From: an uncultured Clostridia bacterium
Lineage (GTDB): Bacteria > Bacillota > Clostridia > Oscillospirales > Feifaniaceae
Direction of reading: 5' to 3'
Assembly: GCA_944376235.1 (NCBI GenBank)
Contig: CALWCA010000003.1
Coordinates: 1-64,000, forward strand
DNA length: 64,000 nt
Shown here: positions 58,415 to 64,000 of the stretch, one piece after another
How the letters are laid out: each line of letters begins with the position of its first letter
Position numbering within the stretch: position 1 is the stretch's first letter
Notes under the pieces: model-generated
What the model was told of the DNA's origin: nothing
What the model saw: the letters and a program-made list of their open reading frames with translations, nothing else
Databases searched by the model: none
Translations under genes and position numbers: made by a program

Positions 58415-58428
58415 GCGGGAGGTTGTCA

Positions 58429-61146
58429 ATGGCTCAGAAGGATTCTGTACGGCCGAAGGAGGCTTCAAGTAAGATAACGCTGGAATACCGCGTCACGGGC
58501 ATGACCTGCGCCGCCTGCTCTGCAGCGGTGGAGAAGGCGGTGCGGCGGGTGCCGGGGGTGGTTTCGGCAAACGTCAACCTGATCCTGGAGCGGCTGACGG
58601 TGGAGGCCGCGCCGGGTTTTGACGGCGCCGCCGTGTGCGACGCCGTCAAAAAGGCAGGCTATGAGGCGCAGCCCATAGCCGCAGCGCCGCAGACACAGAC
58701 GCTGGAATATCATGTGACGGGCATGAGCTGCGCCGCCTGCTCTGCGGCGGTGGAGAAAGCGGTGCGGCGGGTGCCGGGGGTGGTTTCGGCAAACGTCAAC
58801 CTGATCCTGGAGCGGCTGACGGTGGAGGCGCCGACGGATTTTGACGGCGCCGCCGTGTGCGACGCCGTCAAAAAGGCGGGCTATGAGGCGCAGCCTCTTT
58901 CGCAGGACAAAACGCTGCGCTTTGGCGTGCGGGGCATGACCTGCGCCGCCTGCTCTGCGGCGGTGGAAAAGGCCCTGCGTCGCAAGGAGGGGGTGCGCAG
59001 CGCCTCGGTCAATCTGATTACCAATACGGCAGAAGTGGTCTATGACCCCGCCAAGACACGCCCCAGCGAGCTCAAGGCCGCCGTGGTGCGGGCGGGCTAC
59101 GAGGTGGAGGAGCAGGCAGCGCAGCCCGATGCGGCGCAGATGGATCAGGAGAAGGAGCTGGCGGCCAAGAAGCGGCAGCTCATCGTGGCGGCGGTGTTTG
59201 CCATTCCCGTCTTTTATATTGCAATGGGGCACATGCTGCCCTTTGGCATCAAGCTGCCGCTTCCCGAGGCGCTGGATATGACAAAATACCCCGTGCGCTT
59301 TGTGCTGACGCAGCTTGTGCTGGCCATCCCCGTGCTCATCGCCGGGCGCAGCTTTTACCTTGGCGGCCTGCGCCACCTGTTTGCCGGGGCCCCCAACATG
59401 GACACCCTGGTGGCCATCGGAACGGGCTCGGCCTTTATTTACAGTCTGTATTCCACCTGGCGGGTGCTGCAGGGAGACGTTTCCTTTGTGCATTCGATTT
59501 ACTATGAGTCTGCCACCATGGTGGTGACGCTGGTCATGCTGGGCAAGTATTTCGAGCAGCGTGCCAAGGGAAAGACCTCGCAGGCCATCAAGGCCCTGAT
59601 GAACCTGACGCCCAAGAAGGCGACCTTGCTGCGGGATGGGCAGGAGATTGAAGTGCTGGTGGAAGAGGTGGTCGTGGGAGACCTGCTGCTGGTCAAGCCG
59701 GGAGAGGCCGTCCCGGTGGACGGAGAGGTGGTTTCGGGGGCGTCGGCCGTGGACGAGTCGATGTTGACCGGCGAGAGCCTGCCCATTGAAAAAGAGGTGG
59801 GGGACACCGTGACCGGCGGCTCGCTCAACGGCGAGGGCCTGCTCGAGATGCGCGCCACCGCCGTCGGGAGCGACACGGCGCTTGCCAAGATCATCCGTGT
59901 GGTGGAAGAGGCGCAGGGCAAAAAGGCCCCCATTGCCAAGCTGGCCGACCGGGTTGCCGGGGTGTTTGTGCCTGCCGTCATGGCAGTCGCGGTGGTGTCT
60001 GCGCTGCTGTGGTGGATTGCAGGCAAAGACATTGCCTTTACCCTGACGGTCTTTGTCTCGGTGCTGGTCATCGCCTGCCCCTGTGCGCTGGGACTTGCCA
60101 CGCCGACGGCCATCATGGTGGGCACCGGAAAGGGTGCGGAGCTGGGCATCCTCATCAAAAGCGGCGAGGCGCTGGAAACGGCCGGACATGTGGACATTGT
60201 GGTGCTGGACAAAACCGGCACCATCACCGAAGGAAAGCCGCAGCTCGACGAAGTTGTGGTGTTTGAAGGGCAGGAGGAAGAGCTGTTGCGGCTGACGGCC
60301 TGTGCCGAGCAGGGCTCGGAGCATCCGGTGGCCCGGGCCATCGTGGAGGGCGCGCAGGAAAGGGGCTTGTCTTTGGCAAGACCGGAGGAATTCACCGCCA
60401 TTCCGGGACACGGCATAGAGGCCGTGGTTGAAGGAAGACGTCTGCTGTGCGGAAATCACAAGCTGATGGAGGCAAGGGGCATTGCAAGCGAGGTGGCGGA
60501 GCAGCCCCGTCAAAGGCTGTCTGCCAAGGGGAACATGCTCATGTATGTCGCGGTGGACGGAAAGCTTGCGGCGCTGCTTTCGGCGCGCGACAAGCTCAAG
60601 CCCTCGAGCGTGCAGGCCGTCCGCCGGCTCAAGGACATGGGAATTGAGGTGGTGATGCTGACCGGAGACAACGCCTCCACGGCGCAGGTCATTGCAAAGG
60701 AGGCGGGCATCGACCATGTGATTGCCGACGTTTTGCCCGAGCACAAGGCGCAGGAGGTGGCTGCCCTGAAAGGGAAGGGTCACAAGGTCTGCATGGTGGG
60801 CGACGGCGTCAACGACGCGCCCGCCCTGGTCAGCGCCGACGTGGGCATGGCCATCGGCGGGGGTACCGACGTGGCGGTGGAGTCGGCCTCGGTGGTGCTG
60901 ATGAGCGGAGACCTCGGCGCAGTGCCGACGGCCATCTCCCTGTCGAGGGCGACGGTGAAGAATATCAAAATGAACCTGTTTTGGGCTTTTGGCTACAACA
61001 CGGCCGGGATTCCGGTGGCGGCCGGGCTGCTCTATCTCTTTGGCGGGCCGCTCATGAATCCCATGCTGGCCGGGGCTGCCATGGCGCTGAGCTCGGTCTC
61101 GGTGGTGAGCAATGCCCTGCGCCTGAGGAAGTTTCAGCCGTCCTGA
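58429..61146 (+). CDS. copA: Copper-exporting P1B-type ATPase with three HMA domains
   Basis: 905 residues. Three N-terminal metal-binding domains with CAAC at Cys27/30, Cys101/104 and Cys172/175; the first two are almost identical. The pump core has the transmembrane CPC motif (550-552), TGES, the phosphorylated Asp594 in DKTGTIT and the SEHPVARA loop typical of Cu+ ATPases. It exports Cu+ from the cytosol. ATG 58429 is six bases from GGGAGG. It is in one operon with csoR. Its 3' end overlaps the convergent rhodanese gene by 13 bases. Confidence 0.97.
58480..58896 (+). repeat. Tandem duplication of the HMA-domain coding unit in copA
   Basis: Segment 58480-58674 recurs at 58702-58896 with a period of 222 bases (74 codons). 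I count about 13 differences in 195 bases, and the middle 60 bases are identical. The third HMA domain, 213 bases further, is clearly diverged, so the first two arose by a recent duplication or are kept alike by conversion. Confidence 0.92.
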
Positions 61147-61580
61147 CGGTCTGTCTGCGCAGAGGGACAGTCGGGGCCCAGACGCTCAAGAGCCTCGGCC
61201 AGAGCGCGGATTTCCCCGACGTCACAGGCGGCATGATACCCGAGCTCCAGCAAAAGCAGGGTGGCCGCCCGGCTGCGAGAGCCACTGTCGCAGCACAGGA
61301 AAATGGGCAGCGATCGGTCTGGCGCGAGAGACGCAATGCGCTCTGCCAGCATGCACAGGGGCACATTTCTTGCCCTGGAAAGGGAAAATTCCTCGGTCTC
61401 TTCGGCGTCACGGACATCGAGCAGCAGGATGCGCTCACAGCAGAGCAGACGGTATGCCGCCTGATGGGGCGTGAGCAGCACATATCCCGCCTGCTGCGCC
61501 GGGGGACAGGGGCGCCCAAAGAGCAGCAGCAAAAGCCCCCCGAGCAGAAAGGTCAGGGGGATGAGCAGCAGGTATTCCAC
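61134..61580 (-). CDS. Membrane-anchored rhodanese-like protein
   Basis: 148 residues. A hydrophobic N-terminus (about 3-20, [20 protein letters not shown]) forms an anchor; a single rhodanese domain follows with LLDVRDAEE and the active loop CCDSGSRSR, where Cys is the sulfur-carrying nucleophile. The role could be sulfur transfer or a redox-linked task near the metal pumps. GTG 61580 follows AAAGG nine bases upstream; an ATG start is not available close by. It is convergent with copA and divergent from the next ATPase. Confidence 0.85.
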
Positions 61581-61640
61581 TTTGGCACAACCTTTCAAAT
61601 AGGGTTTGAAAAGACAATCGGCTTGTTTTCTATGGTTCAT

Positions 61641-61663: not shown

Positions 61664-61703
61664 GTTTCCATGATATCAAAACAAAGAAAGGGAGAGTATG
61701 ATG

Positions 61704-64000
61704 ATGCACCAGGAGCACAAGAGCTGTGGCTGCGGACATGAGCATAGCCACAAGGGCTGCGGCTGCGGACACGACCACCGTCACGAGCATGGGGACTGCG
61801 GCTGCAAGGGCAACGGGCATACCAAGGCCTGCGCCTGCGGCCACGACCATGGGACGTCCCCGGCGCAAAAGGCCGACAGCACCGGCTGCGGCTGCGGAAA
61901 GCACCATGGAGAGGACGATTCGGGAGGCGGAGGGGACGACGCTTCCGGCCACCCACACCCCACCCCGGCAGGCGGCAATGCGGCTTGTTCCAAGCAGGAG
62001 CCTGCAGGGGCTTGTCACGACGAAATAATGCAGCAGAAGGAGCACTGCGGGTGCGGGCATGACCATGGCCACGGACACGGGCATGAGCACTGCGGGTGCG
62101 GGCACGACCATGGCCACGGACACGGGCATGAGCACTGCGGGTGCGGGCACGACCATGGCCACGGACACGGGCATGAGCACTGCGGGTGCGGGCATGACCA
62201 TGGCCACGGCCATGGCTTTGAGCTTGAGCACAGCTGCGGCTGCGGGCACGACCACGGGCACAGCCACGGCGGGGCACGTTTTCCATGGCCGGCGGCGGTG
62301 GCCGTTCCCCTCTTTGTGGCGGGACTGCTGCTTGAAGATATGTATTCCACGGCCGCGCTGCTGGCAGCCTATGTGCTGGCAGGCTTTGCCCCCATCTGGG
62401 CGGCGGTAAAAAATGCCGTGCGCGGAAATCTGTTTGACGAGAACTTCCTCATGACCATCGCTTCGCTTGGCGCGGTTGTCATTGGGGAATATCCCGAGGC
62501 CTGCGCCGTTATGCTGCTGTATCGGCTGGGCGAGTATCTGCAAAACCGTGCGGTGGACAGCTCCATGCGCTCGATTGACGCGCTGCTGGAACTGCGGCCC
62601 GAGAGGGCGCGCCTGCTGGAAAACGGGGAAGAGCGGGAAGTCAATGCCGACAGGCTGAGGCCGGGGGATTTGATTGTCGTCAGGCCGGGAGACAAGGTGG
62701 CGGCCGACGGCGTTGTTCGCGAGGGCGGAAGCTATCTTGACCTCTCGGCGCTGACGGGAGAGTCCGCCCCGGTGGCGGTCGCCGTGGGAGACACGGTGCT
62801 GTCGGGCGGCATCAACCGGGACGGCCTGCTGACGGTGGAAGTCACCCACGCGGCCGACGCCTCCACGGCGGCCCGCGTCATCCGCCTGGTGGAGCAGGCG
62901 TCGCGCGAGAAGGCGCCGACCGAAAACTTTATCACGAAATTTTCCAGGTGGTATACGCCTGCCGTCTGCGCCCTGGCCGCCCTGCTGGTGGTGATTTTGG
63001 GCGGCTTTGGCATCCAGAGCTGGGGCGACGCCTTTTACAACGCCTGTGTGCTGCTGGTGGTCTCCTGCCCCTGTGCGCTGGCCATCTCGGTCCCGCTCGG
63101 CTTCTTCGCCGGCTTGGGGGCTGCGTCCCGCAGGGGGGTGCTCTTCAAGGGCGGGAACTATCTGGAAGCACTGGGAGAGGTAAAGCATTTTGTGGTGGAT
63201 AAAACCGGCACGCTGACCACCGGAAAGCTGCGGGTTGAGACGGTGGAGCCGGCGGGCACAGACAAGCAGCACCTGCTGGAGACGGCTGCTGCTGCCGAGG
63301 CCTTTTCCAACCACCCCGTGGCCCAGGCCATTTTGGAGGCCTGCCCCGACCATCCCGAGGCAAGCGAGGTCAAGGAGCTGGCGGGGCGCGGCATCTCCTG
63401 TATGGTCGAGGGCAGAAGTGTGCTGTGCGGCAATGCAAGGCTGCTCAAAGAAAACGGGATTGAGGTGCCCGACGAGTCGGCCACCTGCGTCCATGTGGCC
63501 CGCGACGGAGATTATCTGGGGCATATTACGGTCAGGGATGAGCTGCGCGATGACGCGGTGCAGACATTGCGCCGGCTGCGTGAGCTCGGCGTGGAGACCG
63601 TCACCATGCTGACAGGGGACAATGCCCGCGCGGCGGCCCCTGTGGCACAGGCGGCCGGGGTGGACAGGGTGTTTGCCTCGCTGCTGCCGCAGGATAAGGT
63701 TTCGCGCCTTGCCGACATCAAGCGGGAGGCCAAAAAGGGCGCCAAAACCGCCTTTGTGGGCGACGGCATCAACGACGCGCCGGTGCTTGCCATGGCGGAC
63801 GTCGGAATTTCCATGGGCATGGGCACGGCGGCCGCCATCGAGGCTTCCGACGTGGTGCTCACGGAGGAGCGGCTGGGCGGCCTTACCAGCGCCATGGAGA
63901 TTTCGATTGCCACGCGCAGAACGGTGCGTGAGAATATCGTCTTTTCCCTGGGCGTCAAGCTGGCGGTCATGGCCTTTGCGGCGGTGGGGCACGCGACCAT
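61704..64000 (+). CDS. Heavy-metal P1B-type ATPase with a long Cys/His-rich N-terminal tail (3' end outside window)
   Basis: 765 codons are visible and the frame is open at the window end. Residues 1-190 are dominated by CGCGH units and HDHGHGH runs, including four 15-residue repeats (114-173). The pump follows: first helices near 192-235, SALTGES, SCPCALAISVPLG with CPC 455-457, phosphorylated Asp499 in DKTGTLT and late GDGINDAPV. CPC with this context fits the Zn/Cd/Pb (P1B-2, ZntA/CadA-like) group. There is no HMA domain. Three ATG codons occur in a row (61698, 61701, 61704); the last has the best spacing to GGGAG. Divergent from the rhodanese gene. Confidence 0.93.
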   Translation, partial: MHQEHKSCGCGHEHSHKGCGCGHDHRHEHGDCGCKGNGHTKACACGHDHGTSPAQKADSTGCGCGKHHGEDDSGGGGDDASGHPHPTPAGGNAACSKQEPAGACHDEIMQQKEHCGCGHDHGHGHGHEHCGCGHDHGHGHGHEHCGCGHDHGHGHGHEHCGCGHDHGHGHGFELEHSCGCGHDHGHSHGGARFPWPAAVAVPLFVAGLLLEDMYSTAALLAAYVLAGFAPIWAAVKNAVRGNLFDENFLMTIASLGAVVIGEYPEACAVMLLYRLGEYLQNRAVDSSMRSIDALLELRPERARLLENGEEREVNADRLRPGDLIVVRPGDKVAADGVVREGGSYLDLSALTGESAPVAVAVGDTVLSGGINRDGLLTVEVTHAADASTAARVIRLVEQASREKAPTENFITKFSRWYTPAVCALAALLVVILGGFGIQSWGDAFYNACVLLVVSCPCALAISVPLGFFAGLGAASRRGVLFKGGNYLEALGEVKHFVVDKTGTLTTGKLRVETVEPAGTDKQHLLETAAAAEAFSNHPVAQAILEACPDHPEASEVKELAGRGISCMVEGRSVLCGNARLLKENGIEVPDESATCVHVARDGDYLGHITVRDELRDDAVQTLRRLRELGVETVTMLTGDNARAAAPVAQAAGVDRVFASLLPQDKVSRLADIKREAKKGAKTAFVGDGINDAPVLAMADVGISMGMGTAAAIEASDVVLTEERLGGLTSAMEISIATRRTVRENIVFSLGVKLAVMAFAAVGHAT
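62043..62222 (+). repeat. Four tandem 45-bp repeats encoding a Cys/His metal-binding unit
   Basis: Units begin at 62043, 62088, 62133 and 62178. Units 1-3 encode HCGCGHDHGHGHGHE and differ only in a silent base; unit 4 ends with GFE in place of GHE. The near identity at DNA level points to recent slippage or unequal exchange and to likely length variation between strains. Confidence 0.95.

Follow-up and report, generated by a model that had tools for sequence, protein, structure and literature searches.

The pump gene lying across the end of the stretch analysed here (the window, 64,000 nucleotides, positions 1–64000 of contig 3 of G000, a draft genome of 1.54 Mb in 22 contigs and 92.7% complete) probably encodes a Zn/Cd-exporting P1B-2 ATPase whose N-terminus is extended by repeated metal-binding modules of the form C-x-C-G-H-(D/G)-H, a reading to which we attach a probability of about 0.7. 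By analogy with the tail of the plant pump HMA4, the most probable role of this extension is to bind Zn/Cd on the cytosolic side, buffering the metal and feeding or gating the pump. As such, it is an unusually large, repeat-built version of a known P1B-2 metal-binding tail, and no new kind of machine.

The reading frame, on the plus strand, has candidate starts at 61698 and at the in-frame ATGs 61701 and 61704 (the last being the choice of an earlier note on this DNA), and continues past the window to a stop at G000:C3:64079, so that the last 26 of the 793 residues of this zntA/cadA-like protein lie outside the window, whose end is 79 bases short of the stop. In profile searches, which covered the 767 residues inside the window, the ATPase scored 482.7 bits with TIGR01512 (cut-off 313.5), likewise exceeded the cut-offs of TIGR01525 and PF00122, and fell slightly below that of the copper model TIGR01511 (394.2 bits, cut-off 397). 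P1B-2 pumps, the Zn/Cd/Pb class, are characterized by a CPC followed by SxP in TM6, N-x7-K in TM7 and DxG in TM8, and this set (CPCx4SxP, Nx7K, DxG) is complete in the core, residing in the membrane motifs SCPCALAISVP, NIVFSLGVK and DVG. Among 40 aligned proteins CPC457-459, S464, P466, N746 and K754 are invariant, as are residues D501–T505 of the phosphorylation site DKTGT, while conservation reaches 90% or more at D775 and G777. Copper-class pumps carry a CPC with GLATP. The corresponding pattern is not matched by this pump (CPCALAISVP), and YN and MxxSS, belonging to the TM7 and TM8 motifs YN(X)4P and MxxSS that PMC4932525 gives for the P1B-1 (copper) class, are absent from its C-terminal 60 residues. 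The closest solved structures by sequence are those of Shigella sonnei ZntA (4umv and 4umw, with an E-value of 1.4e-115 for 4umv), and the same two entries gave the best E-values in a Foldseek search with the predicted model, at TM-scores of 0.48–0.50 (query length) and an rmsd of about 10–11 Å. The highest TM-scores were obtained for the copper pumps 7r0g and 7xun (0.65, query length, rmsd 4.4–5.2 Å), which we read as the model probably adopting a conformation other than that of the ZntA crystals; the structural comparison thus gives no evidence for zinc over copper. The above-cut-off TIGR01512 score and intact class motifs uphold the earlier identification of a P1B-2-type metal pump with a Cys/His tail, and from them we infer that it exports Zn2+/Cd2+. 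With bacterial ZntA/CadA (4umv/4umw) it shares the catalytic core, the TM6 CPC, and the Lys and Asp conserved in the membrane motifs, but where those pumps are compared at the N-terminal end it has no HMA domain that could be found and instead a 197-residue repeat-built Cys/His tail.

This tail (residues 1–197, positions 61698–62288, plus strand) stands out by composition, with 22 Cys and 45 His compared to 9 Cys and 8 His in the remaining 596 residues; with the latter as background composition, an excess this large has a binomial tail probability of 5e-13 (Cys) or 5e-41 (His). It contains ten C-x-C units, eight of them strict C-x-C-G-H, in keeping with the estimate of about ten CGCGH-type units near the N-terminus made on first inspection. 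Four of the units belong to 45-bp repeats (EHCGCGHDHGHGHGH in translation; 62040–62219, plus strand), the fourth divergent in its last 10 bp, and these are followed by a final 54-bp unit (FELEHSCGCGHDHGHSHG, 62217–62270, plus strand). Tandem Repeats Finder reports a 45-bp period for 62040–62209, with 3.8 copies and 98% matches, bearing out the earlier description of four near-identical 45-bp repeats: copies 1–3 show one silent difference only, whereas copy 4 differs from them at 5–6 sites and ends in Phe. The earlier statement that no HMA domain is present also stands, as a Pfam search of the 767 in-window residues gave no PF00403 match at E≤0.01, the pattern G[M/L][T/S]CxxC has no match in the zinc pump, and the looser pattern [L/M/F]xCxxC has none in its tail. 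An AlphaFold2 model built with 40 sequences is mostly confident for the core from about residue 192, while residues 1–191 are devoid of secondary structure and, residue 47 excepted, have pLDDT values below 50, suggesting that the tail is disordered.

Tails of this kind are common to all four genomes of the genus examined (G000 and its relatives G001, G002 and G003) and to G004, a relative beyond the genus, and hold 12–22 Cys and 27–88 His. Their lengths are 197 (G000), 178 (G002), 279 (G001), 125 (G003) and 188 residues (G004), the last depending on the start taken (297 from the first start codon, 211 from the ATG, 188 from the start chosen by eye). An acidic Gly-rich stretch (e.g., EDDSGGGGDD) is found in G000, G001, G002 and, less closely, in G004, and is absent from G003. 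Two named goat metagenome bins carry the same tails as two of these relatives, Clostridia bacterium RGIG1901 from goat cecum (locus L040; L numbers denote the loci read) that of G001, and RGIG2763 from goat omasum (L041) that of G003.

Beyond this group such tails are sparse. A search of 59 genomes for a P1B-2-type pump yielded 50 best matches that were read, leaving out two genomes with no match at threshold (G006, G053) and seven with lower-scoring matches only (G009, G017, G021, G023, G027, G031, G035). No tail or a short one was found in 32 of the 50, an HMA domain in eight, a C-x-C/His array in five, a short Cys/His tail in four and a His-only tail in one, where the HMA count depends on the pattern used (four HMA and 36 short with the stricter, eight and 32 with the looser). 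All five arrays belong to the genus or to G004, and since the 59 genomes are weighted towards genus and family, 5/50 is not an order-wide frequency. The claim that the tail stands in place of an HMA domain does not fit this distribution, as the relatives mostly lack HMA domains altogether.

A wider view was obtained from a DNA pattern for CGCGHDH, which occurs in 32 of 394 genomes of the order and six of 299 of the phylum (the window's genome being in both sets), while the backward control pattern gave zero in each. For 30 of the 32 order genomes (none for G352 and G027) one locus apiece was read, families being assigned by eye. Twelve encode P1B ATPases (four from the window's genus), and three are fragments with an array or HMA domain at a contig end; the others are nine COG0523-like GTPases with CGCGHDH inside long His stretches (L141, L143-L148, L155, L166), five small acidic zinc-ribbon-like proteins with the motif at the C-terminal end in four (L142, L156, L162, L163, L167), and a short frame that is likely due to chance. 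The five other phylum loci comprise two P1B ATPases (L205, identified by its core, and L206, by two HMA domains and the stretch after them), two instances of a small protein, and one short frame. HDHGH-type stretches are also known from the metallochaperone GTPases HypB, UreG and COG0523 (PMC2770081), and the COG0523-like proteins of the same order contain the CGCGHDH motif itself, but these are GTPases and not pumps, having only a short motif in common with the tail.

The phylogenetic spread of arrays was followed on a tree of 136 cores built with FastTree, including eight order ATPases from outside the genus, in which many inner branches are weak. With an array defined as at least three C-x-C and at least ten His (narrowly missed by L139 and L154), 13 of the 136 rows carry the label, requiring at least seven changes, or six if only starred branches are trusted. 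A shuffled label averages 12.6 changes, so that arrays are also clustered; their rows are nonetheless spread over several well-separated parts of the tree, gains and losses not being told apart. Six of the 13 also have an HMA-like CxxC (L082, L093, L046, L151 and L150 by pattern, L149 by eye), indicating that an array can accompany an HMA domain as well as replace it. Cys/His arrays on P1B pumps are thus uncommon yet recurrent, and of the earlier remark that mixing C-x-C-G-H with HDHGH is unusual, the rarity holds, while the combination recurs and is found together with HMA domains. An in-frame TGA had suggested selenocysteine in the G036 and G054 ATPases, but the loci (L178, L179) showed this codon to be the normal stop at the C-terminus.

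Functionally, the tail would act as a disordered cytosolic arm binding many Zn2+ or Cd2+ ions through Cys and His, with a capacity that we would guess from the 22 Cys and 45 His to be of the order of ten ions. It would lower the free metal close to the membrane, and would either hand ions over at the pump's entry site or, when loaded, relieve inhibition. The closest parallel is the C-terminal extension of plant HMA4, described as binding ~11 Zn with KD <10 nM in a manner that needs its Cys pairs (PMC6255694); it too is a long Cys/His-rich extension of a P1B-2 pump and offers many potential sites, and BjHMA4R, like part of the window's tail, is a repeat region (PMC6394093). It differs in being C-terminal, in using CC pairs rather than C-x-C-G-H, and in belonging to plants, and kinship is not expected. 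According to the same account of HMA4 its His stretch is dispensable, and truncation effects in yeast and in planta conflict (PMC6255694). Many of the 45 His may therefore not matter, and on the HMA4 parallel the C-x-C units would outweigh the His runs. Bacterial precedents are mixed. S. meliloti cells whose ZntA lacked its N-terminus reportedly showed a slight sensitivity to high zinc, and the truncated ZntA failed to rescue an E. coli zntA mutant (PMC4932525, given there as data not shown), while E. coli ZntA can dispense with its Cys-rich N-terminus, to judge by a title cited in PMC9374683. In the mycobacterial PacL1-CtpC zinc platform a His/Asp zinc-binding motif aids a P1B pump at high zinc, but as a single short site on a separate membrane protein (PMC9374683). 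As a counterpoint to any importance of the tail, the 32 genomes noted above do without one.

A possible alternative, which we hold tentatively and consider less probable than buffering, is that the tail primarily senses metal, keeping the pump inhibited until loaded, with the number of units setting the threshold. Metal-binding termini of eukaryotic P1B pumps, ATP7B and Pca1p among them, are described in a review as sensing metal or relieving autoinhibition, and stepwise deletion of the HMA4 tail as raising Zn/Cd tolerance in yeast (PMC10654040). However, these examples are eukaryotic, no residue pattern in the present tail distinguishes a sensor from a buffer, and those 32 of 50 genomes manage with no such domain.

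The tail appears to be variable in size. The nearest genome found, G002, aligns with G000 over 5025 bp of the csoR-copA-zntA region at 95.6% identity, and aside from 2-base overhangs at both alignment ends, which were set apart, internal gaps are confined to the zinc-pump array (15 and 42 bp) and the HMA region of copA (222 bp), all in frame; the zinc-pump gene of G002 is split across two contigs, with a 97% match for its second part. The four 45-bp units and single 54-bp unit of G000 contrast with one 45-bp-like stretch and two units of the 54-bp type in G002. The confinement of the zinc-pump gaps to the array indicates that array size differs between sister species, and a repeat count in related genomes, as the earlier note had proposed, thus revealed a difference in both number and kind of unit. 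The earlier idea that the array can change size is supported insofar as it is repeat-built and differs from that of G002, while slippage as the process is our inference from the sequence. A second, independent case is provided by two Moorena drafts (L067, L106), whose P1B-2 cores are 98.2% identical and gapless but whose tails contain three and four copies, respectively, of a different N-terminal 15-residue unit (HDxCCGNSQ, 45 bp). More generally, none of 21 pairs of cores at 85% to <100% identity has a core gap, and tail lengths in the 12 usable pairs differ by 0 to 15 residues. In one of the other pairs (L112/L116) a contig end truncates a gene, and eight more were set aside because of a nearby contig end or of N runs in the tails of L190, L191, L194, L197 and L201, which may be gaps or withheld sequence. 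All array comparisons are between species, and since the genomes are drafts, some with contig ends or N runs inside arrays, repeat counts may be off. In-frame gain or loss of 45- and 54-bp units, by slippage or unequal recombination, would shift the number of sites and leave the pump unharmed.

Such variability could also be expected if the array were largely neutral, a GC-rich repeat growing and shrinking in a disordered tail with little functional effect. The mismatch density between G000 and G002 (19/240 in the array and 12/1015 in the core, the former partly alignment error), the wide variation in length, and the absence of arrays from most relatives read are consistent with this view. We nevertheless regard it as unlikely, since the gaps relative to G002 preserve both the frame and the C-x-C-G-H pattern, Cys/His arrays recur at several places of the tree that lie far apart, CGCGHDH recurs within the His stretch of COG0523-like GTPases, and the sole difference among copies 1–3 is silent, which a recent origin of the copies could also account for. 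That the observed copy number is an assembly artefact is improbable: these are draft genomes, and some other arrays lie at contig ends or N runs, but that of G000 sits inside a 169 kb contig, that of G002 differs in kind of unit and not in number alone, and the Moorena drafts show three versus four copies of a different 45-bp unit.

The adjacent copA shows a comparable difference. It contains a 222-bp tandem HMA duplication (58477–58895, plus strand; Tandem Repeats Finder, 93% matches, and cross-genome comparison). Two HMA domains are present in copA of G002, G003 and G004, which favours a gain in G000, although the two copies are no closer to each other than the species are; the G001 gene is truncated at a contig end. 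Both neighbouring pumps thus differ from the nearest genome in units, HMA copies in copA and C-x-C-G-H units in the zinc pump. Speculatively, terminal arrays of bacterial P1B pumps might be fast-evolving rheostats, in which gaining or losing in-frame units of 45 to 222 bp resets metal capacity around a fixed core, and the Moorena pair may show the same pattern with another unit. The tail would offer a bacterial and genetically simpler parallel to that of HMA4, with naturally occurring variants that differ in how many sites an almost unchanged pump carries, and comparing these variants would test whether P1B tails buffer, deliver or sense metal, a debated point. Our literature search, from which subscription journals were mostly outside scope, found no title or abstract opening on bacterial P1B-2 pumps with C-x-C-G-H arrays; given this coverage, the absence of such reports is weak evidence of novelty.

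The genomic setting of the pump is one of copper genes, making copper binding by the tail possible. A CsoR/RcnR-family metal-sensing repressor (PF02583, 58115–58414, plus strand) is followed by the copA-like copper ATPase with three HMA domains (58423–61146, plus strand; reading frame, profile and pattern matches), and copA lies directly upstream of the zinc pump, within one contig, in G001, G002, G003 and G004 as well. This arrangement, and the good binding of Cu(I) by Cys-rich sites, would suit a tail serving copper together with the CsoR-CopA genes. Such a role is doubtful, however, in view of a core that has the zinc-type motifs (CPCx4SxP, Nx7K, DxG) and lacks the copper-type CPC motif, and of a copA equipped with three HMA domains of its own. 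Between the two pumps lies a rhodanese-like gene with an N-terminal hydrophobic stretch, divergent from the ATPase (61134–61640, minus strand; family by eye); a similar frame is present in G001, G002 and G004 and missing in G003, where the gap is 130 bp. The inverted repeat TTTCAAA-5-TTTGAAA (7-5-7, 61593–61611), between the rhodanese-like gene and the ATPase, is speculatively a candidate operator, its arms being kept in G002, while visual inspection of the stretches compared from G001 and G003 showed none. A promoter scan of L009 6100-9400 detected nothing promoter-like near the gene start. A long minus-strand frame overlying the ATPase gene is probably the antisense shadow of a GC-rich gene. 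Downstream of the zinc pump are genes for asparagine synthetase and asparaginyl-tRNA synthetase (families by eye). Elsewhere in the genome, a 648-codon frame (G000:C6:11767-13392, L137) with the motif CPCALVLATP encodes a third heavy-metal-type ATPase, which has no Cys/His tail.
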